DNA of 41,417 bases from an uncultured Clostridia bacterium (GTDB lineage: Bacteria; Bacillota; Clostridia; UBA1381): NCBI GenBank assembly GCA_947626075.1, contig CANQQW010000012.1, positions 1-41,417 of the forward strand, read 5' to 3'. Under the pieces are notes generated by a model, which saw only the letters and a list, made by a program, of their open reading frames with translations, was not told the DNA's origin and made no database searches. The first letter of the stretch is position 1, and the number at the start of each line of letters is the position of its first letter. Positions 13,185 through 33,449 of the stretch are shown in pieces. The translations under genes and the position numbers were made by a program.

Positions 13185-13475
13185 AAAGCCGCGCTTTTTA
13201 AGGCGATTTCGCATAAAACCGAGCGTAAAACGGGTGAAAGCCGCGTTTTTTAAGGAAATTTCGCATAAAACGGAGCGTAAACGGGTAAAATGCGGCATTT
13301 TTTAAGGAAATTTTGCATAAAACGGAACGTAAAACGAGTGAAAAGCCATGCTTTTTTAGGGCAATTTTGCATAAAACGGATTGCAAAAACGAATAAAAAC
13401 CGTGTTTTTTAAGGCAATTTCGCATAAACAAAAGGCAAAACGGATTTAAAACAGTATTTTTTGAAACAATTTCAC
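13184..13475. repeat. Tandem array of about six 53-base units, each with a mini-hairpin and T run
   Basis: Units start at about 13184, 13236, 13287, 13341, 13395 and 13447 (spacing 51-54 bases). Each has a short hairpin followed by a T run and then a conserved AAGGMAATTTYGCATAAAACGG-like block. The hairpin stems differ but stay paired: AAAAGC-CGC-GCTTTT, AAAATG-CGG-CATTTT, AAAAGC-CAT-GCTTTT, AAAAAC-CGT-GTTTTT; the sixth is decayed. The first overlaps the trhP stop codon, so the array may end trhP transcription several times over. A minus-strand open frame through it (13198-13485) only mirrors the repeat period and lacks a ribosome binding site. Confidence 0.8.
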
Positions 13476-18553: not shown

Positions 18554-21500
18554 ATGAAAAGTAGAAAATTTATTTCACTACTTTGCGCTGCGGCTATGAC
18601 TGTGTCCTCTTTTGCGGGACTTACCATTACCGCAAGCGCGGCAACGGATATCGTTTCTCTTGACGGTACTGTTGAAGCCGGACAATGGACTTGTTCCGAC
18701 ACCAACAACAGAGGCGCAGTAACGTCGGAGACCGACGACGATGGAGCGTATATCCAAGCAAAGAACAGCGACAAGGTAGCCGTTACAGACACGTACGCGG
18801 TTACCGGCGCTACAACGGCGGCGCTAGGTTCTAAGTATGTTATTGAATTTGACGCGTTAATGCACGGTTCAAACGGTTCCGGCGGTCAGGAAGCAGAGGG
18901 AACGCAGATTGCGTTCTACAGCAACAACCGCGCAAGTGATACGAGATCGGTTACGGTTAATAACAGTGCAAGAACTTTTGGCGGCGTAGGTAAAGGCTTC
19001 GTCGTAAAGTATGACGTAAGAAGAAGCTATCTCGGCTCTGACAAGGGTATTGTTATCAACGATCCCGCAGTCGAAGTTCCTCAGGATGCGACAGCGACAG
19101 ATTATTATACGGCTGAAGCCAAGCAGGATACATGGTTGAGAACAAGGGCGGTTGTTGATACATCTGCAAAGACTGCAACGATTACGATAATCAACAAGTC
19201 AGGTCAGAAGCTTGTTAATGCTGAGCCATATGCGTTTGACGGTGCAGGCGATATTACGGGTATCAGTATTACAACAGGTAGAGCAGATGACGGTAATACT
19301 GCGTTTGTAAATCTTGATAACGTACATATTTACGCAGGCGATCCTGACGGTGAACTTGGTACGGAAGGCTTGAGAGGCGAGGCTGCAATCGCGACACCGC
19401 TTCCGGCTCCTGAAACAGTTGCGGGCAAGGCTCCGAAGCTTAAGGCTCCCGAGTCTGTAACAGGCGCTGTTACAGAGGACTTTGAGAGCGCTGAGGTTAA
19501 GATTTATGACAGCGTTACAGGTACCGGTGAAACCAAGCAGCCCGTAAATATCGGTTCGGGTGTTGTTCAGGGCTTTGCCGGTGACAGAGGCTCCAGCGGT
19601 GCTGACGGCAACTCAAAGGTTGAGGTTGTCAATGTTACAGGCGGCGGTAAGGCTGCGAAGCTGTCAGGCGACAGATTTGCAGGCGGCGGCAGATCACCGA
19701 GACTTGTTCTTGCTGACGACCTTTCGATTGCGGACGATCCGACAAAGACATCTATCTTAGGCTTCTCCGTATATCTGTCTAAGGTAAAGGAAGAAAATGC
19801 GGCAAGACTTTGGCTTCTTGACTCACAGCATGCGCAGGATAAGGATGTTAACGACAGTACAAGCTCCGATACATGGTACTATAAGAACATATTAGGTCTG
19901 CTCACGGCTGAAAACGAGGAACAGAACGGCTTCGGCAGTGAAAACTCGAATAGAGTTCTTAACTTAGAGCCGGAACAGTGGCATACAGTTGTTGTTGCGG
20001 TAAGCAACGGAAGATATAGAATATTCTATGATGAAAAATATAAATCCGAGGGCAACCTTTCTCCGGCGATAGTAAATGAAACGGTTAACTATGGTCAGGA
20101 CGCTGCTTATTCGGTAACTAATCTTCCCGCACTCGTTGTTGAGAACATGGTTAACGAGAGAGTATCAAGAGTTCTTGTCGATAACGTAATTGCTTATCAG
20201 GTAGACAACTTTGTTGATGAGAAGGCTCTCCCTGTACTCGACGAAGGCGGAGAGGGACAGCCGACGACTGAGGCGCATAGCGTAACGATTGAATCGACGG
20301 ACGGTAAGACCGCTACGGTTAAGACAACTGAGGAAACTCCGTTTGACGCTGTACTTATCCATGCCAAGTACAACAACGGTGCGCTCACAAGCGTTAAGTC
20401 TTACCCCGTAACAGGCATAAACGCAACAGGCGTTCAGGCTATTAAGGAAGCTGACAATGCAACAATCGCGACAGGCGATAAGCTGATGGTTTGGGATAGC
20501 CTCAGCGGTATGGTTCCCTACGGTGTACTTACCGTTACAGAGGGAGCTACAGAGTACGGCATTACCACAACCGGCATTACGAACGGTACGGTAACGGCTG
20601 ATCCTGCGAAAGCAACAGCAGGTACTAAGGTTACTCTGACAGTAAAGCCCAACGATGGCTATAAGCTTACGGCAGACAGCCTGAAAGTTAAGCACGGCAC
20701 AGAGACTATTACTCCGACTGCCGTTGCAGGTGCAGCCGATAAGTATGAATTCGATATGCCGGCGGCTGACGTAACTGTTGAAGCTGCATTTGAAGCTATT
20801 GAATATACAATTGCAGTTGATTCTGCTCTTGAAGCAGGTGCTTCAATTACAACGACACCTGCAAGCAAGGCGACTGTTGGTACAGAGGTAACTGTTAATG
20901 TAACTGCGCCGGACGGCAAGGTTGTTGATAAGGTTACATATAAAGAAGAAGGCGCAACAGACGCTACACCGATTACGGCTGACGCGACGGGCGCTTACAA
21001 GTTCACAATGCCCGCTAAGAACGTAACGGTTAGCGCTACGTTTAAGGCCGGCAGCGTAACACCTACAGAACAGGTTACGGTAACACTTTCGAACGCAGTC
21101 GGCGTACAAGGCGGTACTATTGCAGCTACGGTTGGTACAGGTACAGATCCTTTGCCCGGCGACGGTAAGGTTGACAAGGGCAGCAAGGTTGTTATCACGC
21201 TTACACCTGACAGCGGCAAAGAGGTTAAGACATTCACGGTAGATGATACCGATAAGATGGCTGACCTCGTTGCAGGCACAGGCGACGTAAAGACATATAC
21301 AATAGAAAGTATTCAGGCTAATACAACAATTGCCGCAACATTCGGCGATAAGGAAACAACACCGACGAAGGCGGCGTTTAAAGACTCCTTCACGGTTAAG
21401 CTGGATCCGGCTTCAGATGTAACGGTAGGCACACAGATTACTGCTTCGCTTGAAAAGTCGGCGAGCAACACTGATAAGGAAGCTCCTGCCGGTGTAACAT

Positions 21501-24500
21501 GGAAGTGGCAGAAGGTTGACGGAGGATCAACTCAGGATGTTCCCGACGAAATAAACGCTACATTCACACCGCAAGAACCGGCTACATATCAGGCTGTAGC
21601 TACTCTTACTGAGGATTCAGACGACTTTACCGCCGGCTCAGTTACGTCAGCGACGGTGACGGTAACGGCGGCACCGGCAGTTAAGCATGCCGTAAAGGTA
21701 ACGGTTGTAGGCCGCGGTTACGCTGCGGCGAGCGTTACGGAAGCGGCTGAGGGCGAACCTGTAACGCTTACGATTGACAACGACAAGTATCACACGGCTG
21801 CTGTTACAGGCGTTACAGGCTATAACGACGGCGAAAAGACATTCACAATGCCCGACGAGGACGCGAATGTAACGGTTACATTTACCGAAAGCTTCCCGAC
21901 AACATTCAGCATTTCAAAGACGGAAGACTTTGAAAGCGGCGAGCAGACACTGTTTACAAAGACAGGCGGCACAGGTCCTATGGAAGTAGCTGACGACTCA
22001 GCAAATGCTAACGCGAAAACAGGCAAGGTTCTTAAAGCAAGAGGCGATACTGACGGTAACAACGGCAGATGCGAAATAACGGCGGCAAATCTCGGAATAG
22101 AGAATGCGGCTTATGTACAGCTCGACGCGCGTTTGGATTGTGCGCAGAGTAACAAAACATCACTCTTATCGCTTCGCGACAAAGATAATAAAGCTATCTT
22201 TACTATAAATGTTACCGCGACCGGCAACGGCAACGGCGGCGGCGCTAATATCAACGGCAACATAACGCTTGACAAAGCTATAGTAAGCAACGAGCGTGAT
22301 AAGGTACAGCAGCTTGCTGACAGACAGGGTTCAGGCTGGCTGACAGTTTCGGCGGCGATCGACTTTGACGCTAAGTCCTCGAAGGTTTTGATTACGAGAG
22401 TATCTGACGGTTCGCTCGTATACTTCGGCGATGTTCCGTTTGCCGATAATACCGCGGCAGGTCTTGACAAGATTTATGCGGAAGCAGGTAAGCTGTACGG
22501 TGCGGCAGGTATAGATGATGTAACAATCAAGGGCGCAAAGGCTACTAATGTAACTGTAACACCTCCGACAACGGGCGGTTCGCTTTCATATAAGAAAGAC
22601 GGTTCTAAGATCGTTATTATACCGACTCCCGATTCGGGCAAGAAGGTTAAGACAGTTACAGTAACAGACGGCGCAGAAGGCGAGCCGAAGCCGGTTCAAG
22701 CAAATGAGAGCGGTGCATACGAGTATACGCCGACTACAGATACAGTAACGATTGCGGCTGAGTTCGTAAGAGACGATATAGCGACAGTTACCGTAACGGG
22801 TGACGATACGGTTCAGAAAGGCGCGGCCTCAACGGCTCCGTACGCTGCGACATTTGCCAGCGCAAAGGGTGAGGCTGTAACGCTTGAAGACGGCGAACAG
22901 ATTACATGGAGCGTAACAGGTGCGACAAATGAAACAGATACAAAGATAGAGAATGGCACGCTTACAATCGCAGCTGATGAAGAAGCGGCTAAGGTTACGG
23001 TTATTGCGTCCGTTCCGAAGAAAAACGGCGAGGCAGAAGCAGTAACCGGCTCTATGGAGGTTAATGTTTCGTCCGAGACGCTTTACAATGTAACGAAAGC
23101 GGATATCGCAGAGGGCGGCGATATTACAATTGAGCCCAACAGAGCCGCTGCAGGTACAAAGGTTTATGTAACAGCTACACCCGAAACCGGTTATGAGGTC
23201 GATGACATAAAGATTAAAGGTACTGTTACAGAGGAGAAGAGCATAAAAGACTCATTCGCTGAAAGTAAGTATTCGTTCGATATGGCGAGCGAAGATATTA
23301 CGGTAACGGCTACGTTTAAGAAGATAAAGTATGGTATAACAAACGGTTCTGAGGAAGGCGATAGAACTGAGAACGGCGGTTATATTTCAAAAATCGAGGT
23401 TAGTGATGCGGACGCTACAGAGGCTGTAATGGGCGATACCGTAAAGGTTACGCTTACACCTGAAGCGAAGTACGAATCGGCAGGCGTAGAGGTTACCGGT
23501 GCGGAAGATATCGAGGTAACGCCGGGCGAAACGAATGTATATACGTTCACGATGCCCGCAGCGGCTGTAACAGTTACGGCTAAGTTCCAAAAAGAGGCGC
23601 TTGCTGACAGAAAGCCGACGGGCTTTGAATATGATAACGAAACGCTTTATGAGTTGCTTGTAAATGCAAAGCAAGGAAAGGGCGGCGGAGGTTATGACGG
23701 TGCTCAGACAACAAGAGTGGGCGACAGACTTGTCACACCCGCAAAGGAAAACAGACGTTTTGATGTTCCCGGTAACCTTTCAATAAATCCCGGAACGGTA
23801 TATTTTGTCTGCGACTTCAACGTAACAGCGGGTGAAACAATTACATTCCTTGGTAAGAAAGGTAACGACTATCCCGGAGCAACGTTATCATTTATTGCCG
23901 ACGCCCAAGGAGCTATTAAGGCACAGGTAGGCAGCAATGCTGCAAAAGAAACAACTCTTGAAGCCGGAAAGTGGTATAACATGGTTCTCAAAGGCGAAAG
24001 AGACGCAACCGGTCATGCCAACGGTACTGTTGCCGTATACGAAATCGACGACACAAATGATACTGTAAAGACAGATAATAATCTTTTGAAGGATGCAGGT
24101 CTTGAAACTGTAAGTATGTCCACAGCAAATTACCCTTGGAGTGCGACGCATTGCGGCGGCACAGCGGACGGTACTTCGGCGCTCGATAATGCGTACTACT
24201 GCACAGATCCGTTCTATGAGGCGAAGATTACCGTTACAGGTACAGACAACGGCGAAGTGGCGGGAGATAATAATCCTACCCCGGTCAACGACGCTACAGT
24301 AACGGTTAAGAAAGACGGAAAAGAAGTCGCGAAACAAACATCCGGTGCGGAGGGCGTATACACATTCAAGCTTCAGGCAGGTACGTACAGCGTAGAGGTT
24401 GCCGCTACAGAAGCGTATGAGGCTAAGACGCTTGCTTCGTTTGAGGTTACGAAAGAAGGCGCTAACACTGCAACAATCAATCCGAAGAAGCAGGATACTA

Positions 24501-25470
24501 AGGTTGCGTCGATAGATGTTACCGATAAGCTCGGTGACGCGCATAAAGATTCGGGCAGCGAGTTCACAGTTCTTTCATCAGAGCAGCAGAAGACGATACA
24601 GCTTACCGCGACTGCAAAGAATGAGGGCGGCGCTGTAGTTAAGGACACAGAATTTACATGGGATTCTGATAAGAAAGATAATGGCGTAACGGTTAGCGAA
24701 GGTCTTGTAACGATAGCTGCAACTACAGGTGCAAGTGAGGATGTGACAGCAAGATTACAGCAACAGCCGGAGAGAGCGTAGTAGGCAAGTACATAATTAA
24801 GGTTTCTAAGACCGGTACGGAAACGTTGCTCGACTACTGCGATAACTTCGACGGCGAGACGAATATCTTCAATGGCGCAACAGGTGACGCTGCCGGCGGC
24901 AAGGTGCTTGTAGGAAGCGCGGAAGGCGTTACGTGGGAGCTTCCCACAGCGATGGAGCTTACTGACAAGGAAACGCTGACAGTTTCATACGTTGATTACA
25001 ACGGCTGGCAGAGTGGCGGTCACAAGAAGGTTGTTCAGTTCCTCGGTGATGAGAGTGCGGTTCTTGCGGAGTATCAGTATAACGACTTAGCAGATCCCGC
25101 TGGTGCTTCTGGCAGAGACAGACCGTGTGCTATTGACAGCTTGAAGGTTAATAGTGTAGCTCAGATTGAACAAAGTACAAGATTTGATGCACAGTCGAAG
25201 AACGGCGGTAGTGGCGCAAATAAGCTTGAAAACTTTGCGGCTGATGATAATCAGAACTGCATCGCAGAGTTCTCGGTATCGGGTAAGAGTACGGACAACG
25301 TACAGCTTAAGTACACTGTAAGAGGTACCGAAGCAACCACAAACGGCAGTCCTTGGAAAGCGACCGTTGATGGCGCTAAGTTCAAGGGTGTTAAGCTGCT
25401 TAATCCCGGTACAAATTGTGCTGCTATAGGTAAGTTCAGAGTAACGCTTACAAGAGAAGCAGGAGAATAA
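18554..25470 (+). pseudogene. Giant secreted multi-repeat surface protein gene, interrupted by a one-base frameshift near 24749
   Basis: The first frame (18554-24781) encodes 2075 residues with a signal peptide (about 1-28). Domains in rough order are: LamG-like (about 30-265); another beta-sandwich (about 305-560); InlB B-repeat-like units ending in F-x-MPA-x-x-VTV-x-A-x-F motifs (about 665-750, 754-835, 1046-1110, 1510-1590, 1592-1680); Ig-like segments; LamG-like (about 1116-1325 and 1690-1890); a carboxypeptidase-regulatory-like fold (about 1895-1965); and a Big-like domain. At 24749 the frame breaks: the continuation ITATAGESVVGKYIIKV lies in the next frame and runs on to 25470. Restoring one base (an A in GCAAGATT) gives one protein of about 2305 residues. 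A real mutation, phase variation or a sequencing error are all possible. No catalytic domain or wall anchor is recognised; a role in adhesion or carbohydrate binding is inferred. Confidence 0.8.
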
Positions 25471-25497
25471 TAATCACCACGAAAATTGCATAATAAT

Positions 25498-25525
25498 AGG
25501 GAGCGCTGACGCGCTCCCTTTCCTT
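25498..25525 (+). terminator. Terminator after the giant surface protein gene
   Basis: An eight-base perfect stem GGGAGCGC / GCGCTCCC with loop TGAC, followed by TTTCCTT. Confidence 0.85.
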
Positions 25526-25558
25526 GTGCGTGGGCTGTGACTTTTTTGCGTCGTTCAC

Positions 25559-25587
25559 TTGACTTGTGTCAAACGGTGTGGTATAAT
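25559..25587 (+). promoter_or_regulatory. Promoter of small RNA copy 2
   Basis: TTGACT (25559-25564), a 17-base spacer and TATAAT (25582-25587). The -35 box is part of a palindrome TTGAC-TTGT-GTCAA. It is a near copy of the promoter at 25770-25798. Confidence 0.75.
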
Positions 25588-25593
25588 AAAGAT

Positions 25594-25676
25594 ACAAAAA
25601 AGGCAAGACTTTCAACGGTTATGCCCACATTTGACTACAAAATAGCCGTACCTTTGGGCGGGGCGGCTATTTTGCA
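25594..25676 (+). ncRNA. Small antisense RNA, diverged copy of the 11.65-kb antitoxin RNA
   Basis: A predicted RNA of about 80 bases ending in the hairpin AAAATAGCC...GGCTATTTT (25639-25673), the same stem as at 11704-11733. Its 3' end overlaps, on the other strand, a decayed toxin frame (25667-25729). With no intact toxin it may now be a relic or a trans-acting antitoxin. Confidence 0.55.
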
Positions 25677-25729
25677 TTCATGGTGAAATCTATCAATATG
25701 ATAAGGATTTCGATGATCGTCTTGGTGAT
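25667..25729 (-). pseudogene. Decayed copy of the 23-residue toxin
   Basis: Read on the minus strand this gives ITKTIIEILIIL followed by IDFTMNAK and a TAG stop. Aligned without gaps to the last 20 residues of the peptide at 11730-11801 (VTKIIIWVVIIL, then IFELRAQ plus stop) it keeps T, K, several I/L positions, F, A and the stop position. It has no start codon and no ribosome binding site: two codons upstream of the conserved part an in-frame TAG appears within TTATTAGGC. The stop codon lies in the shared hairpin, exactly as in the intact copy. Confidence 0.55.
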
Positions 25730-25751
25730 TACACCGTGAGCCTAATAAAAA

Positions 25752-25795
25752 ATACCACACCCATTTTGCTTGACTTTCGTCAAAGGGTGTGGTAT
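25752..25795. repeat. Long inverted repeat embracing a promoter
   Basis: Perfect 11-base arms ATACCACACCC (25752-25762) and GGGTGTGGTAT (25785-25795) enclose a nested palindrome TTGAC-TTTC-GTCAA (25770-25783) that contains the -35 box. It is a candidate operator, or a hairpin that stops transcripts entering from the left. Confidence 0.7.
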
Positions 25796-25798
25796 AAT
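25770..25798 (+). promoter_or_regulatory. Promoter of the antisense RNA facing the Hol_Tox-like toxin
   Basis: TTGACT (25770-25775), a 17-base spacer and TATAAT (25793-25798). The -10 region and transcript start GGTATAATAGGCATAT (25791-25806) recur exactly on the minus strand at 26184-26199. Confidence 0.8.
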
Positions 25799-25804
25799 AG
25801 GCAT

Positions 25805-25901
25805 ATAGCGAACATATGTTCTGCGTAGTTGTTTTTTGTAGAAGAAAAAATTACTTCTACCCTAAGTATCTGTTATTGACCTAACAGATACTTATTTTTT
25901 T
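25805..25901 (+). ncRNA. Candidate antitoxin RNA for the 29-residue toxin
   Basis: A predicted RNA of about 97 bases with a 5' hairpin (GAAC-ATAT-GTTC), a middle hairpin GTAGAAG...CTTCTAC and a strong terminator: a 13-base stem TAAGTATCTGTTA / TAACAGATACTTA with six T residues after it. The terminator overlaps the last codons of the toxin gene on the other strand. Both RNAs carry GTTCTGCG near their 5' ends. This is the txpA/ratA-like convergent layout. Confidence 0.7.
25863..25901. terminator. Terminator shared by toxin and antitoxin RNAs
   Basis: A 13-base perfect stem (25863-25875 and 25882-25894) with a T run on the plus strand. The toxin stop codon (25892-25894) lies in the stem. Confidence 0.85.
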
Positions 25902-25981
25902 ATCCAACATAGCAATATGAATATCAATACAGATACGGTCTGTAATGCCGTAACAGCCACAAGGGCATCGTACACATTCAT
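25892..25981 (-). CDS. 29-residue membrane peptide, Hol_Tox/TxpA-like type I toxin
   Basis: The peptide starts MNVYDALVAVTALQ, continues with a hydrophobic helix (TVSVLIFILLCW) and ends IKK. The pattern M-x-V-Y-[DE]-A-L, then one membrane helix and a basic end, is that of the putative holin-like toxin (Hol_Tox) and TxpA/BsrE group of type I toxins, which act on the bacterium's own membrane when the antisense RNA is lost. AAGGAGGG (25988-25995) lies six bases before the ATG. Its own promoter (26035-26063) and a convergent antisense RNA complete the module. It sits in a cluster with hicAB and relics of another small toxin family. Confidence 0.78.
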   Translation of the reverse strand: MNVYDALVAVTALQTVSVLIFILLCWIKK

Positions 25982-26034
25982 ACCAATCCCTCCTTTGTAG
26001 GGATTCGCAGAACGCGCCGCCATAGCCTATGATT

Positions 26035-26063
26035 ATTGTACCATATTGCGCGGTATTTGTCGA
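26035..26063 (-). promoter_or_regulatory. Promoter of the Hol_Tox-like toxin
   Basis: On the minus strand, TCGACA (26058-26063), a 17-base spacer and TACAAT (26035-26040), followed by a leader of about 47 bases. Confidence 0.65.
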
Positions 26064-26098
26064 TACGTGACGCGAAACCGTAACGTAATCGTAAACGC

Positions 26099-26185
26099 AA
26101 AAAAATAGCCGCCCCAAATTGCCATGAGTGACGGCTATTTTAGCTCAACTCGGACAAACCGCCTTTAACGCGGTCGCCTCTCCAT
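26099..26185 (-). ncRNA. Orphan small RNA of the same antitoxin family
   Basis: A minus-strand RNA of about 87 bases with a 5' stem-loop (ACCGC-GTTAAAG-GCGGT), a short single-stranded part and the family hairpin AAAATAGCCG...CGGCTATTTTTTT. The 5' loop and terminator resemble the RNA at 11649-11737. No intact peptide gene faces it on the plus strand. The Hol_Tox-like promoter follows on the same strand. It may be a leftover antitoxin, or act in trans on the toxin at 11.7 kb. Confidence 0.6.
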
Positions 26186-26191
26186 ATGCCT

Positions 26192-26220
26192 ATTATACCG
26201 CATTATCGCTTGTCTGTCAA
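26192..26220 (-). promoter_or_regulatory. Consensus promoter of the orphan small RNA
   Basis: On the minus strand, a perfect TTGACA (26215-26220), a 17-base spacer and a perfect TATAAT (26192-26197). Confidence 0.88.
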
Positions 26221-26236
26221 GCATAATGTGGTATTT

Positions 26237-26446
26237 TTATGCGTACATCAACCGACCGCGCGGGACGGGTATCTCTCTACCCTCGTCGCGCGCCGTATCG
26301 ATCCATTCTTCAATAACGGTCTCGGCGTTTTGAATTGCCTCCGCGCGCGTTTTGCCGTCAGCCATACAGCCCGCAAGCTCCGGCACTTCGGCGATAAACG
26401 CGTTGTCGTCCTTACTCCAATAAAGGATGATTTCATAATTACGCAT
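26237..26446 (-). CDS. hicB: HicB family antitoxin
   Basis: A 69-residue protein with the HicB partial RNase H-like fold: YEIILYWSKDDNAFIAEVPELAGCMADG, then TRAEAIQNAETVIEEWI. HicB binds and blocks the HicA mRNA interferase. It is a short form without the extra C-terminal DNA-binding domain found in longer HicB proteins, so autoregulation by this protein alone is less certain. The ATG overlaps the hicA stop by eight bases, and GGAGGAGA inside the hicA end serves as ribosome binding site. The order is toxin first, antitoxin second. Confidence 0.9.
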   Translation of the reverse strand: MRNYEIILYWSKDDNAFIAEVPELAGCMADGKTRAEAIQNAETVIEEWIDTARDEGREIPVPRGRLMYA

Positions 26447-26699
26447 CTAAATCTCCTCCCAAACCATATTTAACTATAATTCTTCTTATTTGTTTAACTT
26501 GATACGGTTTTGCGCTGTCGCCGATAGGCTGTAAATTCAAAATTTCGTCAACGCCCCGCTTGGTGTATATGAAATGGTCGCCGCGTATTCGTTCATGAAA
26601 GCCGAGATAGCTCATTAACTGCCGCACGTCGCTGAATTTAATGTTTGCGTCACGGTTACCTCTTAATATCATATATATTATTTTACGCATTTGGCTCAT
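26439..26699 (-). CDS. hicA: HicA family mRNA interferase toxin
   Basis: An 86-residue toxin with the double-stranded RNA-binding-like fold of HicA. The conserved segments are FSDVRQLMSYLGF, then RGDHFIYTKRG with the presumed catalytic His, and a C-terminal QVKQIRRII helix. HicA cuts mRNA and halts translation until HicB neutralises it. An in-frame ATG at 26714 lies only a few bases behind the promoter -10 box, so the ATG at 26699 behind GGGGTGG is preferred. The pair sits between the terminator of the headless surface-protein cassette and the small-RNA cluster. Confidence 0.9.
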   Translation of the reverse strand: MSQMRKIIYMILRGNRDANIKFSDVRQLMSYLGFHERIRGDHFIYTKRGVDEILNLQPIGDSAKPYQVKQIRRIIVKYGLGGDLDA

Positions 26700-26720
26700 T
26701 TTATACCACCCCATATACTC

Positions 26721-26750
26721 ATTTTACCACACCCTGTGCGGCGATGTCAA
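26721..26750 (-). promoter_or_regulatory. hicAB promoter
   Basis: On the minus strand, TTGACA (26745-26750), an 18-base spacer and TAAAAT (26721-26726). The sequence GGGTGTGGTA before the -10 box matches that of the small-RNA promoter at 25785-25794. Confidence 0.8.
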
Positions 26751-26756
26751 GGCAAG

Positions 26757-26786
26757 AAAAAAGGGAACGCAATGCGTTCCCTTTTA
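26757..26786. terminator. Terminator at the 3' end of the headless cassette
   Basis: Stem AAAAGGGAACGC / GCGTTCCCTTTT with a three-base loop and T/A runs on both sides. It lies 35 bases behind the stop codon of the minus-strand cassette and just upstream of the hicA promoter. Confidence 0.85.
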
Positions 26787-26820
26787 AGTTATGCGTACAC
26801 AAGATGATTATTCTGTAAGA

Positions 26821-29226
26821 TTATTCTGCTGCAGTAACGCCCGATATATCAACTGTAATCAGCGTCGGTGCATAATTCGCGCCGGCACCATCAAGGTCAA
26901 GCTTGAAGTAAGCCTTATAATTTTGCGGACTTTCTGCCCCATTCGTATACGGCAATTTATCACATCTCAAGAGAATATCTGCCGCATAAGCTTTATCAAA
27001 CTCACCTGTTACCTTGAACTGGTTCGAGAAATCTTTAATCGTGTCGCCGTTAGCTGTCCATGTAGTCGGAGCTGATACAGCCCACTGCCAAAGCAGTACA
27101 CCTGTGTTTGCCTGCGGAGCCGCGCTCTCATAAATGCCGCTCTTCGGAAGTGTTATACGAACCGGGATATAATACTGCTCGCCCTTTTCATTTTCAAGGT
27201 CAACCTTCTTTGCTGTACCCGTGATTTTAAGTACGCCGCCGTCATCTGCAACGGTAAATGTACCCAAGTCACTTGCAGACTTGTTAGCAAAACTGCTGCC
27301 GAAGTTATGCTCCGTCGGTACAACTCCGCTGGTCGGCGTATCCTTAACATCGTCGTCTGCCGGATCTGATGTCACAATGTTGCTCTTTGTCTGAGTCGGG
27401 AGGTCGCTTATTGCACCATCTTCCTTCTCGATAAGTACATAGTCAACAATCAGTCTGCCCTGATCGCCCGAAGGATCGTCATACAGAATAATAGTGTCGC
27501 CTTTCTTGAAGTCCTTAGTGTCTGCCGCCGTGTCTACGGGACCACTGATTGTTTTTGTTATTGTTGTAGCAGCAATCAGCGTATTCTCTGTAAACGGAGC
27601 CTCATTTTTGAAAGCAGCCAGCTTTGCACTCTTAGTGGCATTAGCGGTACAGGAGCAAACCGTAACCTTGTACTTACCGTCTTCGGGAATTGTGAATACC
27701 GGAGCCTTGTTTGCCTTGCTTGCTTCACCCTGGACACCCGAGCCGTACTTCTTCGACAAGTTTGCTCCAAACTGGTTAGTGCTCGACTTCTTTCCGTAAG
27801 GAGCACCTAAGTCCTCGACCTCAACATAATACTTAACAGCGCCGTCATCAACAGCTGTGTATTCAACAACCTCATCCGCCGTATCCGCGGCTACGGTTAT
27901 GTCCTTACTGTATGTCGTTCGGTTGCAAGTAGCCGTAACTTTTTTGTCATCGCCCGCGAGGTACTTCGGCCAAACGAAAGTTATTGTGTCGCCCACATAT
28001 ACATTTTCTTTGGTGTCCATAACCGTCTCAGCTTCGCCAACCTTGCTCTTAAGCTGTATGGTCTTCTTCTGAGCTTCCTTAAACTTAAGAACGAGCTCTG
28101 CGGTCGGACCGTCAGGCGTTACAGATGTATCCGATGTATCCGAAAGCGTGTACTTTACGCCGTCTACCGTAAAGTCGGCTTTCATATCATTTGTAGCCTC
28201 ATATTTCGTACCCTGCGGAACTTGCGCGGAAGTAGCTCTTCCGTCTTCGGGTGAAAGGTCTCCACCTGATTCTTTCTGATACTTAATTATAACCGTGCTC
28301 ATTTCGGGAGCATCGGTAAGTACAACATCAGTCAAGGTCGGAACCTTAGCGGCATCCGCAGCCGCGTCATAGATTGTCGCATCCGTAAATTTATCGGTTG
28401 AAGCGTCAATTCTCAATGTAAGAGTTCCTACAGCCGTAAGATCTGTAAGTTTAACCGTCATCGGTAAATCCGTACCGTCTGATGCTGTTACGTCCTCAGT
28501 TGTTACCGCAATAGGCTCTCCCGAAGCCGAAACGAACGGCGTAATATACTTACCGACATATCCGCCGCCATCTGATGTATCCGTGTAATCAGTTGCTCCC
28601 GCATAAGTTTCAGCGTCAAATGTGCGAACCTGAAGCTTGGCGCCGGCAGGAATAGTACTGCTCTTAGGCGGCTTAGCGCCGGTCTCGGTAAGCTTAAGCG
28701 TAGCGCTTATCAGCATCTTGTCTGAGGGAATGTCAAACTGGATTGCAGCCGCGGAGGTAGCAGTTGAACGTGCGTCTACGTTTATTTTGTTTGCGCCGGT
28801 CCATTTATGACCGTAGCTACCCTGAATCCATGCACTGGACTTAGCCTTTATATCGGCTCCGTCCGTAATCGCCGCCGTTGTGATAGCAATTGTCGCACCC
28901 TCAGCGGTTACATCGATTGTACCTGTAACCTTAGCTGTCCTAATGCCTTCGCTAACTGTAATGCCTTTAACAGCAGTTATGATATAATTATCTGCTGCCT
29001 CGATCTCAACAGCCTGACCGTTTGCAATTGTAACGTCCGTACCGTCGTCGCCCGAAGCGATAGGTGTTTCGCCAACCTTAACGCTCTTAACGTTGTCACC
29101 TGTGTACTTAACCTTTGCCGTTGTCTGTACAGGAGCCGTTACAACTACTGTCTCTGACGTAACTGTACCCGAAAACGGGGGAGATGGGTATTTTATGCGG
29201 TTTTTGCGATATGCCTTACACGTTTT
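26821..29226 (-). pseudogene. Headless surface-protein cassette (no start codon)
   Basis: An open frame of 801 codons on the minus strand without a usable start. From the recombinase stop codon (29227) down to 28716 there is no ATG, GTG or TTG in frame, and the Met at 28716 has no ribosome binding site. The protein sequence is clearly real surface-protein sequence: FSGTVTSETVVVTAP and TAKVKYTGDNVKSVKVG at the beginning, a DNRLRE-like beta domain (KWTGANKINVDARST, IQFDIPSDKML), a MucBP/YkuD-like segment (STVIIKYQKESGG), a carbohydrate-binding-like domain (YYVEVEDLGAPYG) and a last Ig-like domain ending ITVDISGVTAAE. A normal stop and terminator follow. Its beginning resembles the linker VTSATVTVTAAP in the giant gene. 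It is either a truncated gene or a silent 3' cassette for DNA inversion. Confidence 0.75.
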
Positions 29227-29234
29227 TTACACGA
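29217..29234. repeat. Left copy of an 18-base direct repeat flanking the recombinase gene
   Basis: TACACGTTTTTTACACGA, itself a double TACACG motif. It overlaps the recombinase stop codon. The right copy at 30463-30480 differs at one base. The pair is a candidate for attachment or recombinase-binding sites. Confidence 0.65.
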
Positions 29235-30387
29235 ACGGAAATAATTTATTCATAAGCGTTACGGCGCGTTCCTCCTCGCGCGGATAGAGGTGGGAATAGA
29301 TGTTCCACGTCACCTCGATATCCGAATGACCGAGCCTGCGCGCTATTTCCTGAATATTTATGCCGTTATTCGCGAGCAGCGACGCGTGCGAGTGGCGGAA
29401 GTCATGGACGCGTATGCGCTCCAGCCCCGCGCCCTGCGAGTAGCGCGTGTTGCGGAAATCCGTCGTCGTCGTGCGAATGGAGCGCTCGCCGCCGCATATG
29501 CGAAATTCCTCGGTAAATCCGTCAAGCTTTTCCTGCCGCGCGTGATGGTCGCGCAGTATGTTCACAAGCGGCTGAGGCATCTGCAAATCCCGCATGGACG
29601 TCTTGCTTTTTGTCGGCGTTTCCATGTCGCCGCCGTTGATTTTCTGTATAAGGTTGCGCCGCACATGAATGATGTCGCCGTCAATGTCCGACCATTTCAG
29701 CGCGCATATCTCGCCGCGGCGCATACCTGTGAAAAAGGCAATGTTGAAAAATACATAGTAATTCCATTCCTTATCGTTCCCGCGCGCTTCGGCGTTCTGC
29801 GCCTCCTCGCGCGCAACCGCGATGAATTTCGCAAACTGCTCGGGCGTGTAGTATTTCATTTCCTTTTTCATTTCATACGGGTTTTTGAAATTTCCCACGC
29901 TTGTAAGCGGATTGCGCGGCAGGTATTCCATACGCACCGCGTAATTCAGCATTGTGCGAAGCTCGCCGTATATGTCCTGTTTCAGCATAAGCGATATTTT
30001 GCGCTCGGGACACCGCGCGCGCGTACGCTCGTCAAAGCATGACTTCCACTTTTGCAATAGCGGCACGGTCAGCTCGCGCAGAGTGTAAGCGCCAAGCTCG
30101 GGCAGTATGTACGGCTCCAGGCGGGTCCGTATAGCGCGGAGAGTGTTCTCCCGAAGCTCATGACGGCGCGCTTCAATGTATTCCGCGTAAAGCTCGTTTA
30201 ACGTCATGTTGGGCGCGCCTATCGGCTTAACCTCGCGGTTAAGACGCTCCTCAAGCTGCTTCGCCGCCTCCCTGCCGTAAGCCACCCGGTCAAGCTGACG
30301 CGCTTTGCCGTTCTTGTCGGTATAGTTGATTCGGACGCGGTAACGCTGCAATCCGTCCCGCTTTCCGTCCATTTTATAAATAGGCAT
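29227..30387 (-). CDS. Site-specific tyrosine recombinase / integrase
   Basis: A 386-residue phage-type integrase. It has an N-terminal AP2-like arm-binding part (about residues 1-55), a SAM-like core-binding domain (about 60-165) and a C-terminal catalytic domain with the full set of residues: Arg223 in FFTGMRRGE, a Lys in TKSKTSMR (about 262), HDFRH (His328, Arg331), LGHSD (His354) and the nucleophile Tyr364 in NIYSHLY. AAAGGAGG precedes the ATG. No excisionase, relaxase or phage genes are nearby, so it is solitary. It is flanked by near-identical direct repeats, lies directly behind a headless surface-protein cassette in the same frame, and is divergent from the PL11 gene. It could be a leftover of an integrated element or the driver of local DNA rearrangement. 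Confidence 0.93.
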   Translation of the reverse strand: MPIYKMDGKRDGLQRYRVRINYTDKNGKARQLDRVAYGREAAKQLEERLNREVKPIGAPNMTLNELYAEYIEARRHELRENTLRAIRTRLEPYILPELGAYTLRELTVPLLQKWKSCFDERTRARCPERKISLMLKQDIYGELRTMLNYAVRMEYLPRNPLTSVGNFKNPYEMKKEMKYYTPEQFAKFIAVAREEAQNAEARGNDKEWNYYVFFNIAFFTGMRRGEICALKWSDIDGDIIHVRRNLIQKINGGDMETPTKSKTSMRDLQMPQPLVNILRDHHARQEKLDGFTEEFRICGGERSIRTTTTDFRNTRYSQGAGLERIRVHDFRHSHASLLANNGINIQEIARRLGHSDIEVTWNIYSHLYPREEERAVTLMNKLFPFV

Positions 30388-30418
30388 GATGTCCTACCTC
30401 CTTTATGCGTATAAGTCA

Positions 30419-30447
30419 ATTATACACAAAAATTCGACAAGCCGCAA
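30419..30447 (-). promoter_or_regulatory. Recombinase promoter
   Basis: On the minus strand, TTGCGG (30442-30447), a 17-base spacer and TATAAT (30419-30424). The right 18-base repeat lies 15 bases upstream of the -35 box, so the protein could influence its own expression by binding there. Confidence 0.7.
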
Positions 30448-30462
30448 TACGCTTATTTTTTG

Positions 30463-30480
30463 TACACGTTTCTTACACGA
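30463..30480. repeat. Right copy of the 18-base direct repeat
   Basis: TACACGTTTCTTACACGA, 17 of 18 bases identical to 29217-29234 and in the same orientation. The interval enclosed is about 1.26 kb and holds only the recombinase gene. Confidence 0.65.
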
Positions 30481-30505
30481 TTGAGAATCAATTTACCCGA
30501 AACCG

Positions 30506-30520
30506 TTCCGAACTTCGGAA
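30506..30520. promoter_or_regulatory. Palindromic operator candidate upstream of the PL11 gene
   Basis: A perfect palindrome TTCCGAA-C-TTCGGAA ending 12 bases before the -35 box at 30533. Its placement suits an activator or repressor of the lyase gene. No matching regulator is identifiable in the window. Confidence 0.45.
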
Positions 30521-30532
30521 TAAAATCGCATT

Positions 30533-30562
30533 TTGAACAAAAAACACTGTAAATTATACAAT
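30533..30562 (+). promoter_or_regulatory. Promoter of the PL11 lyase gene
   Basis: TTGAAC (30533-30538), an 18-base spacer and TACAAT (30557-30562), leaving a leader of about 115 bases in which I see no recognised riboswitch. Confidence 0.55.
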
Positions 30563-30683
30563 GAATTTATTAAAAAGGCTTTAAAATTTATGAAAAATAT
30601 GTTATTATATAGATAATAATCACTATGCTTAAATGCAGGCAGTAACAAAATGTGATATGTAAAAATCAGAGGGAGGAAAAGAA

Positions 30684-33449
30684 ATGTTCAAAAAATCATT
30701 GAAAAAGTTAGGTATTTTTTCACTGGTTCTTGCGCAGGTAGCTGCCGTAGGACTTGTCGCTCCGACAAGCGCGGGCGCGTTCGCGGGCAGCGCTGTGACG
30801 AGAAACATGGAAAAGCTTGACAGAGGCGTTGTCGCGACAAAGACAGACGACGGTGTGCTTGTGTCATGGAGAAGGCTGGCGACGGAACCGGCTGATACTC
30901 AGTTCACTCTTTACAGAAATAAAGACAAGATAACTGAGGGAGCAATCACAAACTACGTTGACGCTCAGGGTACGGTAAACGATAAGTACACGGTAGTGGC
31001 TAACGGTGAAATGTCAGACAGCGTAGGCGTTTGGGCAAACGGATATCTCGATATTCCGCTCGGTCAGACACCCGAAAGCGACGTTGTACAGATGGACAGA
31101 AACGGTATTTACGTAGGAGCTTACGCGCCCGGCGACTCGTCTTACGGCGACCTTGACGGCGACGGTCAGTATGAAATCGTAATGCTGTGGAATCCGTCGG
31201 ACGCTAAGGACGCGGCTTCGACAGGTCAGACAGGTAAGGTATTTGTTGATGCGTACAAGCTTGACGGTACTCAGCTTTGGAGAATCGACATGGGCTACAA
31301 TATCCGCGCGGGTCAACACGACACGATGCTTAACATCGCCGACTTTAACGGCGACGGTAAGGCGGAGGTAATGCTCAGAACAGCCGACGGTACTGTTGAC
31401 GGTCAGGGCAACGTAATAGGCGACGCTTCAAAGGGTGACACGTATGAAAACAGCTGGGCGGCTATGAACGCGGGTAAAAACCTGCAGGGTCCGCTTTATG
31501 TAACGTGCTTCGACGGTACCACGGGCGCGGCGCTCGATACTATTGATTATTTCCCGAACAACGCGGTAGGCTCGATGCAGACATGCTACAGCTTCGGTGA
31601 CGATTTCGGTAACCGCAGTGAGAGATATAACGGCACAATAGCTTATCTCGACGGTAAAACTCCGTCGGCGGTATTCGCGAGAGGTTATTACTTCGGTAAA
31701 AACATCTCCACGCCGAACGGACGTACGGGCTGCGCGGCTTACAGCTTCAAGAACGGCAAGCTCACAATGGATTGGTCGTTCGATACCGCGGACAGTAAGT
31801 TCAACGGATATATCGGTCAGGGTAACCACCAAATTGAAGCCGGCGACGTTGACGGCGACGGTAAGGACGAAATCCTTTACGGCGCGCTGACATGGGACGA
31901 CGACGGTTCGATCCTGTGGTGTACATTCCAGGAGCACGGCGACGCTATGCACCTCGGCGATTTCGACCCGACCAAGGAGGGTCTTGAATTCCTTAAGGTT
32001 TACGAGGACTACGGCGCAGACAGCGGCGTGTTCGCGCTTAACAGCGAGCAGCTTTCGCCGTTTATCACGTCGAACACAATCTTCAAGAACTCAAGTGCAG
32101 CCGCTTCGGGCGGAGCTCCTGAGGACCGTCATCAGTGGGGTCTTACGGTACAGAACGCTAAGACGGGTGAGTTCTATCAGATGCATAACGGCGTTAAGGA
32201 TACAGGCCGTGGTATGATTGCAAACATCGGTTACGGTGATTCATATTATGTAGCATGGGGCGCCGGCTCGTCAGGTTACTGGGACGACAAGGGTAACGAG
32301 CTTCCCGATCTCGGTGCTTCCATGAACGGCAGAATTTACTGGGACGGCGACCTCCAGGATGAGCTTCAGGACCACAGAGGCGCAGGTCAGGAAATCACAA
32401 TTACAAAGTGGAACGACAGCACGAAGAAGTTTGATGAGATCTTTGTGGGCGAGGGTTCGCACTCGATAAACAGCACAAAGGGTAATGTAAACGTTCAGGC
32501 TGACCTCCTCGGCGACTGGAGAGAGGAAATCGTTTCATACGCTATAACAGGCTCCGACACGAAGAAAGAAAATATGACAATCACAGGCGACTGGGGCAAG
32601 GACGTAGAAGTTGAAATGGATAAGACGGTTTATCAGTATTCACTGAGAATATTCGAGACGCCGTATCCGACAGAGTATAACTTCTATACGCTCGCGCATG
32701 ATGATATTTACAGAAACTCGTCGGCATGTAACGCAAACTGCTACAACCAGCCGCCTCACATCAGCTGGTACATGAACGATAAGATTTCAGGTTCAACGTA
32801 CACGACACAGCCGGCGGCTAACGTAAGCCTTGTAAACAACAGCTATACTCCGAAAGCGTTTGACGCGAGCCTTCTCCCCGAGGGCGGAAGCGGCACTACG
32901 TCAACACCGTCTACGGAAGTATTTACGGATATAAGCGGTCACTGGGCTAAGGATTTCATCCTCAAGATGAACGGCGTAGGCGTTATCAACGGTATGGGTG
33001 ACGGTACGTTCCAGCCCGAGGGTACTGTTACAAAGGGTCAGTTCGCTACTCTTATCGTAAACGCTTTGAAGCTTGACGTTGACGAGTCGCTTGCAAGCGA
33101 GCACTGGGCAATGCCGTATGTAAAGGCTGCTCAGAACGCTAACCTTATCGCGGACGAAATTCCGTTCACGGTTGACCAGTTTGACGTAAATATCTCAAGA
33201 GAAGAGATGGCTTCAATGGTAGCAAAGGCTGCCGCTTACAAGCAGATTACGGCTGAGCCCGCTGAGAGCACGTTTATAGACGCTGATCAGATTGCGGATT
33301 GGGCTGCGGAGGATGTTAAGAACGCTGTTGCACTCGGTATCATCAACGGTATCGACACAGACAAGGGTCTTACATTCCAGCCGAAGGCTAACGCTACAAG
33401 AGCGCAGTCGGCTACAATGCTTTCACAGCTTTGGGACTTAATGCAGTAA
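30684..33449 (+). CDS. Rhamnogalacturonan lyase (PL11) with three SLH domains
   Basis: A 921-residue exported enzyme. After a signal peptide (about 1-32) residues about 35-720 match the PL11 rhamnogalacturonan endolyase fold, with N-terminal MEKLDRGVVA, repeated calcium-binding Asp loops (GDLDGDGQYE, ADFNGDGKAE, GDVDGDGKDE) and the late LLGDWREE and LAHDDIYR segments of the beta-propeller. PL11 cleaves the rhamnose-galacturonic acid backbone of RG-I pectin by beta-elimination. After a Ser/Thr/Gly linker (about 730-742), three S-layer homology repeats (about 745-800, 805-858, 862-918, beginning FTDISGHWAKDF) should fix the enzyme to secondary cell-wall polymer. GGGAGGAAAAG precedes the ATG. 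It works logically with the CE12-like esterase at 13568. Confidence 0.93.
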   Translation: MFKKSLKKLGIFSLVLAQVAAVGLVAPTSAGAFAGSAVTRNMEKLDRGVVATKTDDGVLVSWRRLATEPADTQFTLYRNKDKITEGAITNYVDAQGTVNDKYTVVANGEMSDSVGVWANGYLDIPLGQTPESDVVQMDRNGIYVGAYAPGDSSYGDLDGDGQYEIVMLWNPSDAKDAASTGQTGKVFVDAYKLDGTQLWRIDMGYNIRAGQHDTMLNIADFNGDGKAEVMLRTADGTVDGQGNVIGDASKGDTYENSWAAMNAGKNLQGPLYVTCFDGTTGAALDTIDYFPNNAVGSMQTCYSFGDDFGNRSERYNGTIAYLDGKTPSAVFARGYYFGKNISTPNGRTGCAAYSFKNGKLTMDWSFDTADSKFNGYIGQGNHQIEAGDVDGDGKDEILYGALTWDDDGSILWCTFQEHGDAMHLGDFDPTKEGLEFLKVYEDYGADSGVFALNSEQLSPFITSNTIFKNSSAAASGGAPEDRHQWGLTVQNAKTGEFYQMHNGVKDTGRGMIANIGYGDSYYVAWGAGSSGYWDDKGNELPDLGASMNGRIYWDGDLQDELQDHRGAGQEITITKWNDSTKKFDEIFVGEGSHSINSTKGNVNVQADLLGDWREEIVSYAITGSDTKKENMTITGDWGKDVEVEMDKTVYQYSLRIFETPYPTEYNFYTLAHDDIYRNSSACNANCYNQPPHISWYMNDKISGSTYTTQPAANVSLVNNSYTPKAFDASLLPEGGSGTTSTPSTEVFTDISGHWAKDFILKMNGVGVINGMGDGTFQPEGTVTKGQFATLIVNALKLDVDESLASEHWAMPYVKAAQNANLIADEIPFTVDQFDVNISREEMASMVAKAAAYKQITAEPAESTFIDADQIADWAAEDVKNAVALGIINGIDTDKGLTFQPKANATRAQSATMLSQLWDLMQ

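Follow-up and report, generated by a model that had tools for sequence, protein, structure and literature searches.

The window analysed here, a 41,417-nucleotide stretch of DNA from an uncultured Clostridia bacterium, very probably carries a shufflon-like inversion system that swaps the tails of a giant secreted protein and is run by a domesticated integrase of the IntTn916 type. In such a system a 12-base core, CAGTTACGTCAG, would connect a constant head to either of two C-terminal tails (Table 1). The recombinase would bring together the core next to its gene and an inverted one inside the head gene (or, in the related genome G012, inside other silent tails), and strand exchange within the core would invert the 7.5 kb between the two cores. 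This would fuse the silent tail in frame to the head, and the former tail would in turn become silent. Only the head-joined tail would be expressed, the other being silent because it has neither a start nor a signal peptide. The protein is probably surface-located. The recombinase would be a former mobile-element integrase, and the repeats on both sides of its gene would have outlasted the rest of the element.

Table 1. Coordinates of the recombinase locus, the proposed invertible segment and the associated short sites in the window
Feature	Position	Strand	Remarks
Constant head	18554-21638	+	1,028 codons; signal-peptide-like start; InlB-B-repeat domains (Pfam PF18998); heads homologous across species
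Recombination core CAGTTACGTCAG, inverted copy	21639-21650	+	Inside the gene of the headed protein
Tail now joined to head	21639-25470	+	Frame broken near 24.78 kb: ORFs 18554-24781, then 24826-25470
Proposed invertible segment	21639-29165	.	7,527 bp; two alternative C-terminal tails, tail to tail; in-frame fusion on in-silico inversion; the homologous segment forms a separate contig in G013
HicB-like and HicA-like genes	26237-26714	-	Between the tails, inside the invertible segment; Pfam PF15919; PF07927 sub-threshold
Silent headless tail	26821-29165	-	780 codons in frame with the core; 5' end without start codon or signal peptide
Recombination core CAGTTACGTCAG, recombinase-side copy	29154-29165	-	Starts the headless tail
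TTTCGGGT, tail-side end of recombinase unit	29167-29174	-	Just outside the repeats
Doubled TACACG repeat TACACGTTTTTTACACGA	29217-29234	+	Downstream of the recombinase, overlapping its last codons and stop; proposed arm-type binding site
Tyrosine recombinase	29227-30387	-	386 amino acids; IntTn916-type; Pfam PF00589, E=9.5e-23
Doubled TACACG repeat TACACGTTTCTTACACGA	30463-30480	+	Upstream of the recombinase; proposed second arm-type or autoregulatory site
TTTCGGGT, other end of recombinase unit	30495-30502	-	Sharp edge of conservation in relatives

Cores, head and tails in the window

The window contains the core as a pair of inverted copies, whose identity extends over 12 bases; the base immediately to the left already differs. 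Downstream of the recombinase and on the same strand, the silent tail is a 780-codon frame that opens ..FSGTVTSETVVVTA. The protein motif at its start, AGSVTSATVTVTA, recurs at residue 1027 of the headed protein, which begins at 18554 on the opposite strand and has 2,075 amino acids. When the 7,527 bp between the cores are inverted in silico, head and silent tail are fused in frame to give a protein of 1,809 amino acids. The locus shares two features with shufflons: the recombinase gene adjoins inverted short sites within one reading frame, and a constant 5' part is followed by alternative in-frame 3' parts. The shortness of the core and the frame break in the head-joined tail near 24.78 kb both weigh against the inversion reading. 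The frame change itself (window 24700-24830) is either true decay or an assembly error.

Other origins of the headless frame were considered and rejected. Its start is not the end of a signal peptide, since the same motif lies well inside the headed protein. Nor is it the remainder of a gene into which the integrase inserted: the upstream neighbour of the integrase is the intergenic region belonging to a conserved rhamnogalacturonan lyase gene, or other sequence, and no head, so that excision would not restore a start.

The HicB-like and HicA-like genes are also found between the tails in G009, G010 and G013 (94-99% identity, HicA being matched only partly in G013). These toxin-antitoxin genes could guard the segment from deletion. 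The window also contains a small membrane-type ORF (MNVYDALVAVTALQTVSVLIFILLCWIKK; 25892-26023, minus strand), which resembles a holin-like toxin by eye and has 31-base direct repeats in its vicinity, at 25558 and 25769.

Related loci and contig ends

We compared 16 genomes of the genus using a 23-base site pattern with up to two mismatches. This gave two sites each in G000, G009, G010 and G013, four in G012, one weak site in G011 and none in the other 10. All of the site-bearing genomes of the genus carry a relative of this integrase (the G011 homologues being of the tRNA type). The 11 tails examined are all open from the core for 780-1,096 codons in a single frame, with no start of their own. 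The heads are homologous, with 29-43% protein identity between them; the tails are a patchwork of differing domains. As computed here, the same tail occupies differing positions in sister species: the head-joined tail of G009 and the integrase-side tail of G010 show 92.6% DNA identity over 366 bp beginning exactly at the core. In G012, the head gene shares its contig with two silent tails, in both orientations, and a third tail lies beside the recombinase, the cores being identical. After each of the six closest homologues of the recombinase (L036-L040 and L057; 62-97% identical except where tRNA-linked) comes either a headless frame or the start of one, with content that differs each time.

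In a deeper relative, G016, the site is GTATCAGTTGAGCCG(A/G)C and occurs once beside the integrase and once inside the gene of a 2,536-amino-acid headed protein. From this comparison, site sequence and recombinase seem to have changed together. The differing site (L165, L164) is located in a threonine-proline-rich linker of the protein. Both tails of G013 end in a carbohydrate-binding module, CBM_4_9, and, taken together with the InlB-B-repeat domains of the window head, this permits a guess that the protein binds polysaccharide of plants or of mucus.

Homologous recombination dependent on RecA, or a different recombinase of the host, might instead exchange the tails; the genome does encode further tyrosine recombinases, and tails have domains in common outside the core. 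We consider this very unlikely: exact identity at the junction extends over just 12 bases (window) or 13 (G009), contigs end exactly at the core, and the sites, at the stringency used, are confined to genomes with this integrase family.

Putative switching was read from the contig ends of metagenome assemblies, for which a 77-base assembler word was deduced from the overlaps. In G013, contig C26 (8,140 bp) begins at both ends exactly with CAGTTACGTCAG and contains two tails arranged tail to tail. Contig C6, which carries the head, has exactly 77 bases in common with it, and the integrase contig, C10, ends 30 bases past the start of the core, which is the exact point of divergence of the two tails. 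The head contig continues past this 30-base divergence point into one tail, and the fourth junction, between head and second tail, is for this reason not directly seen. The head of G009 is on contig C57, which shares exactly 77 bases with C105 and stops at the point of divergence of the C105 and C104 tails (13 bases); the recombinase contig C104 ends 77 bases after the start of the core. A graph assembler using 77-base words would stop at these positions if both orientations were present in the reads. The identical stretches near the start of the two G013 tails are only 30 and 37 bases long, by themselves too short to break a 77-mer graph. This pattern is as expected if both orientations coexist in G013 and G009, with the qualification that it concerns contig ends only and that a strain mixture would look alike. 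The contig of the window crosses both core sites unbroken. No switching is visible in that assembly and, since there is no break, we make no claim of switching for the sample from which the window comes.

It can be objected that all of the evidence comes from metagenome assemblies and that the head-joined tail of the window has a frame break. The contig breaks would then be assembly artefacts or the product of mixed strains, and the headless tails decaying pseudogenes from an old rearrangement. We give this explanation little credence: besides the short identities in G013, all of the silent tails retain long intact frames, and a mixture of strains would itself imply a recent inversion.

The recombinase and its 18-base repeats

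In an alignment of the recombinase with 25 homologues, the residues R223, K260, H328, R331, H354 and Y364, including the tyrosine nucleophile, are invariant in all 26 sequences. An AlphaFold model (pLDDT 85.6) has a beta-beta-beta-alpha N-terminus, with strands at residues 4-10, 13-23 and 29-37 and a helix at 39-53. Three strands and one helix at the N-terminus constitute the arm-binding fold of the IntTn916 subgroup (PMC8138268), and the N-terminus of the recombinase is, on this model, a predicted arm-binding domain. The best match in the PDB is the Tn1549 integrase. Several strands are modelled in the region of the catalytic-domain beta-insertion, as compared without strand-by-strand superposition.

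Recombinases associated with the proposed tail swapping, including that of the window, form a monophyletic clade (support 98/91), and the sister of this clade, L041, is located at a tRNA-Leu gene. Outside the clade, 19 of the 27 homologues adjoin a tRNA or tmRNA gene. One related integrase, 57% identical and on contig C49 of G000, adjoins a tRNA-Arg (ccg) gene, and the doubled TACACG motif separates the two. It belongs to a putative integrative element at this tRNA gene (L017, 10372-16460 of C49). A scan of viral contigs gave one distant homologue and nothing more, no homologue above 60% identity was found in phage records, and an Rfam search of window positions 24000-31000 found nothing.

The initial annotation had drawn attention to two near-identical 18-base repeats in the same orientation, enclosing the recombinase and its promoter region alone. 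Both are present and agree at 17 of 18 positions (TACACGTTTTTTACACGA and TACACGTTTCTTACACGA), with the refinement that the left copy runs into the end of the gene. The doubling of TACACG in each copy was also correctly described: the 6-mers are spaced 11 bases apart, approximately one helical turn. With up to three mismatches, the 18-base motif has exactly two matches in the window, compared with 0.13 expected from shuffles, and two matches were obtained in 2 of 100 shuffles of the window at the same threshold. Further copies, which the initial annotation had proposed to look for, are not scattered through the genome: the single further match with fewer than three mismatches in its 1.87 Mb is on C49, adjoining the 57%-identical integrase. 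The repeats are real and non-random, but crossover probably does not take place at them. As a separate observation, five tandem copies of a 52-base unit lie between two genes at window positions 13185-13447.

The two copies differ in their distribution. The upstream copy is present in all seven members of the recombinase clade of the window and in none of the 27 other homologues, so that copies flanking the gene on both sides are found in this one clade. A doubled motif at, or just 3' of, the end of the integrase gene is kept in 17 of the 27 homologues outside the clade and absent there in the other 10. Homologous recombinases without the repeats had been named as a finding that would count against the proposal; outside the clade, absence of the upstream copy is the rule, and the 10 homologues just mentioned do not have the downstream copy either. 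In many tRNA-integrated homologues the doubled motif lies between integrase and tRNA, inside the element and not at the junction itself. Arm-type sites adjoining an attachment core would be expected in this order (integrase, doubled motif, tRNA), and the repeats are accordingly read as such. From their position, the enzyme family and the modelled fold, we infer that they are binding sites of the arm type, a legacy of an integrative element, and they would be bound by the N-terminal domain of the recombinase.

The repeats could alternatively be transcriptional operators of the recombinase gene only, unrelated to recombination. In five species the upstream copy lies approximately 75-92 bases before the start codon, 5' of a promoter-like TATAAT. 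The downstream copy, which overlaps the end of the gene and is retained in tRNA-integrated homologues far from the promoter of the gene, fits such a function poorly, and we regard it as improbable.

It had also been suggested that the repeats are the attachment sites of a 1.26-kb mobile unit. As stated, this is ill-fitting, given the position of the motif in the many integrated relatives, and the shared recombination core is a different sequence, CAGTTACGTCAG, located outside the repeats. In a broader form, the proposal would be a one-gene mobile unit of 1.26-1.33 kb with either the 18-base repeats or the adjacent TTTCGGGT copies as attachment sites. A little speaks for this: TTTCGGGT is found in direct orientation at both ends of the recombinase block in the window, G009 and G010, in relatives it marks a sharp left edge beyond which the neighbours differ, as from a shrunken mobile element, and the homologues are integrases of larger elements. 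However, there is one copy per genome, neither an empty site nor a second copy was found among the 16 genus genomes, in every close relative the unit still adjoins a headless tail, and the tail-side end in G012 lacks TTTCGGGT. A mobile unit of this kind is most improbable. More specifically, the idea that a one-gene unit excises by crossover at TTTCGGGT was dropped, both for the absence of this sequence from the tail side in G012 and for the fact that identity with the head gene starts at CAGTTACG.

In G000, G009, G012 and G006, the edge of the block adjoins the promoter region of a conserved lyase gene; in G010 and G013 the block instead lies behind two ABC-transporter genes. Between the repeats there is only the integrase, with no cargo genes of the sort that would identify an integrative element or prophage. 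The sharp TTTCGGGT edge and the differing neighbours lead us to view the block as a remnant, and suggest that it is what remains of an integrated element stripped to its integrase and arm sites. The 18-20 bases just outside the edge (window 30503-30525, and the same place in L036-L039) vary by species, in several cases forming differing inverted repeats at the same spot.

A further suggestion of the initial annotation, that the repeats are accessory binding sites of a resident inversion enzyme, agrees with the evidence. We infer that this enzyme performs the inversion, with strand exchange in the core. No doubled motif was found near the head or the other silent-tail sites. As it occurs beside the integrase only, any role in inversion is conjectural; there, the repeats may hold the recombinase at its own site. 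A more tentative idea, to which we would give somewhat less than an even chance, is that an integrase with arm-type sites bracketing its own gene has been domesticated into a tail-swapping engine for a family of giant secreted proteins in gut Clostridia, whose recombinase side may act as a hub, exchanging tails with any head or silent cassette, as the restriction of the arm sites to that side might allow. To our knowledge, such directional hub behaviour has no precedent in other shufflons.

Relation to known systems

The recombinase shares its domain plan, catalytic residues and best fold match with the Tn916/Tn1549 type (IntTn916 subgroup; PMC8138268), and many relatives likewise adjoin tRNA genes and have doubled direct-repeat motifs close to the attachment site. 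It differs in that the window locus has no mobile-element cargo and in that the enzyme is tied to the exchange of host protein tails.

In the R64 shufflon, the Rci recombinase acts with sfx sites to switch the C-terminus of PilV (PMC11852207). Both loci have a tyrosine recombinase gene beside inverted short in-frame sites and a constant N-terminal part with alternative C-terminal parts (PMC11852207). Several silent tails are also found in G012 (four sites), whereas the genome of the window has two sites only. The window system is, in contrast to R64, chromosomal and from rabbit-gut Clostridia, and varies a giant secreted protein, through tails 780-1,100 codons long, instead of a pilus tip; its enzyme, nearest in fold to the Tn1549 integrase, is predicted to have an arm-binding domain, and doubled arm-type motifs flank the gene. 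We do not claim membership of the Rci family for this enzyme.

At the pneumococcal cod/hsdS locus, the locus-encoded tyrosine recombinase PsrA inverts DNA between repeats within genes and moves silent copies into the expressed one (PMC7096588). The window has the same combination of a locus-encoded tyrosine recombinase and silent copies that would be exchanged into an expressed gene; the pneumococcal target is a methylase specificity subunit and the repeats are 15, 85 and 298 bp (PMC7096588). In the UU172/MBA system of Ureaplasma, inversion at short inverted repeats fuses a constant N-terminus bearing a signal peptide to differing surface-protein partners (PMC3047005), as proposed here for the head. 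The candidate enzymes there are XerC/RipX-like and not settled, and the bacteria and proteins are others (PMC3047005). From all three systems, that of the window differs in enzyme subgroup, host group and target. A literature search, with many journals outside its reach, found no described case of such a tail-swapping system.

Starting from one recombinase gene and its repeats, the analysis adds a likely protein-diversifying inversion system for uncultured gut Clostridia. With a tRNA-integrated sister on the tree, it also shows how a mobile-element integrase could plausibly have become machinery for host diversification. With the sites known exactly, reads of existing rabbit-gut metagenomes could be mapped to test for switching. 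If active, the system would explain how one head gene presents differing carbohydrate-binding or adhesive tails.
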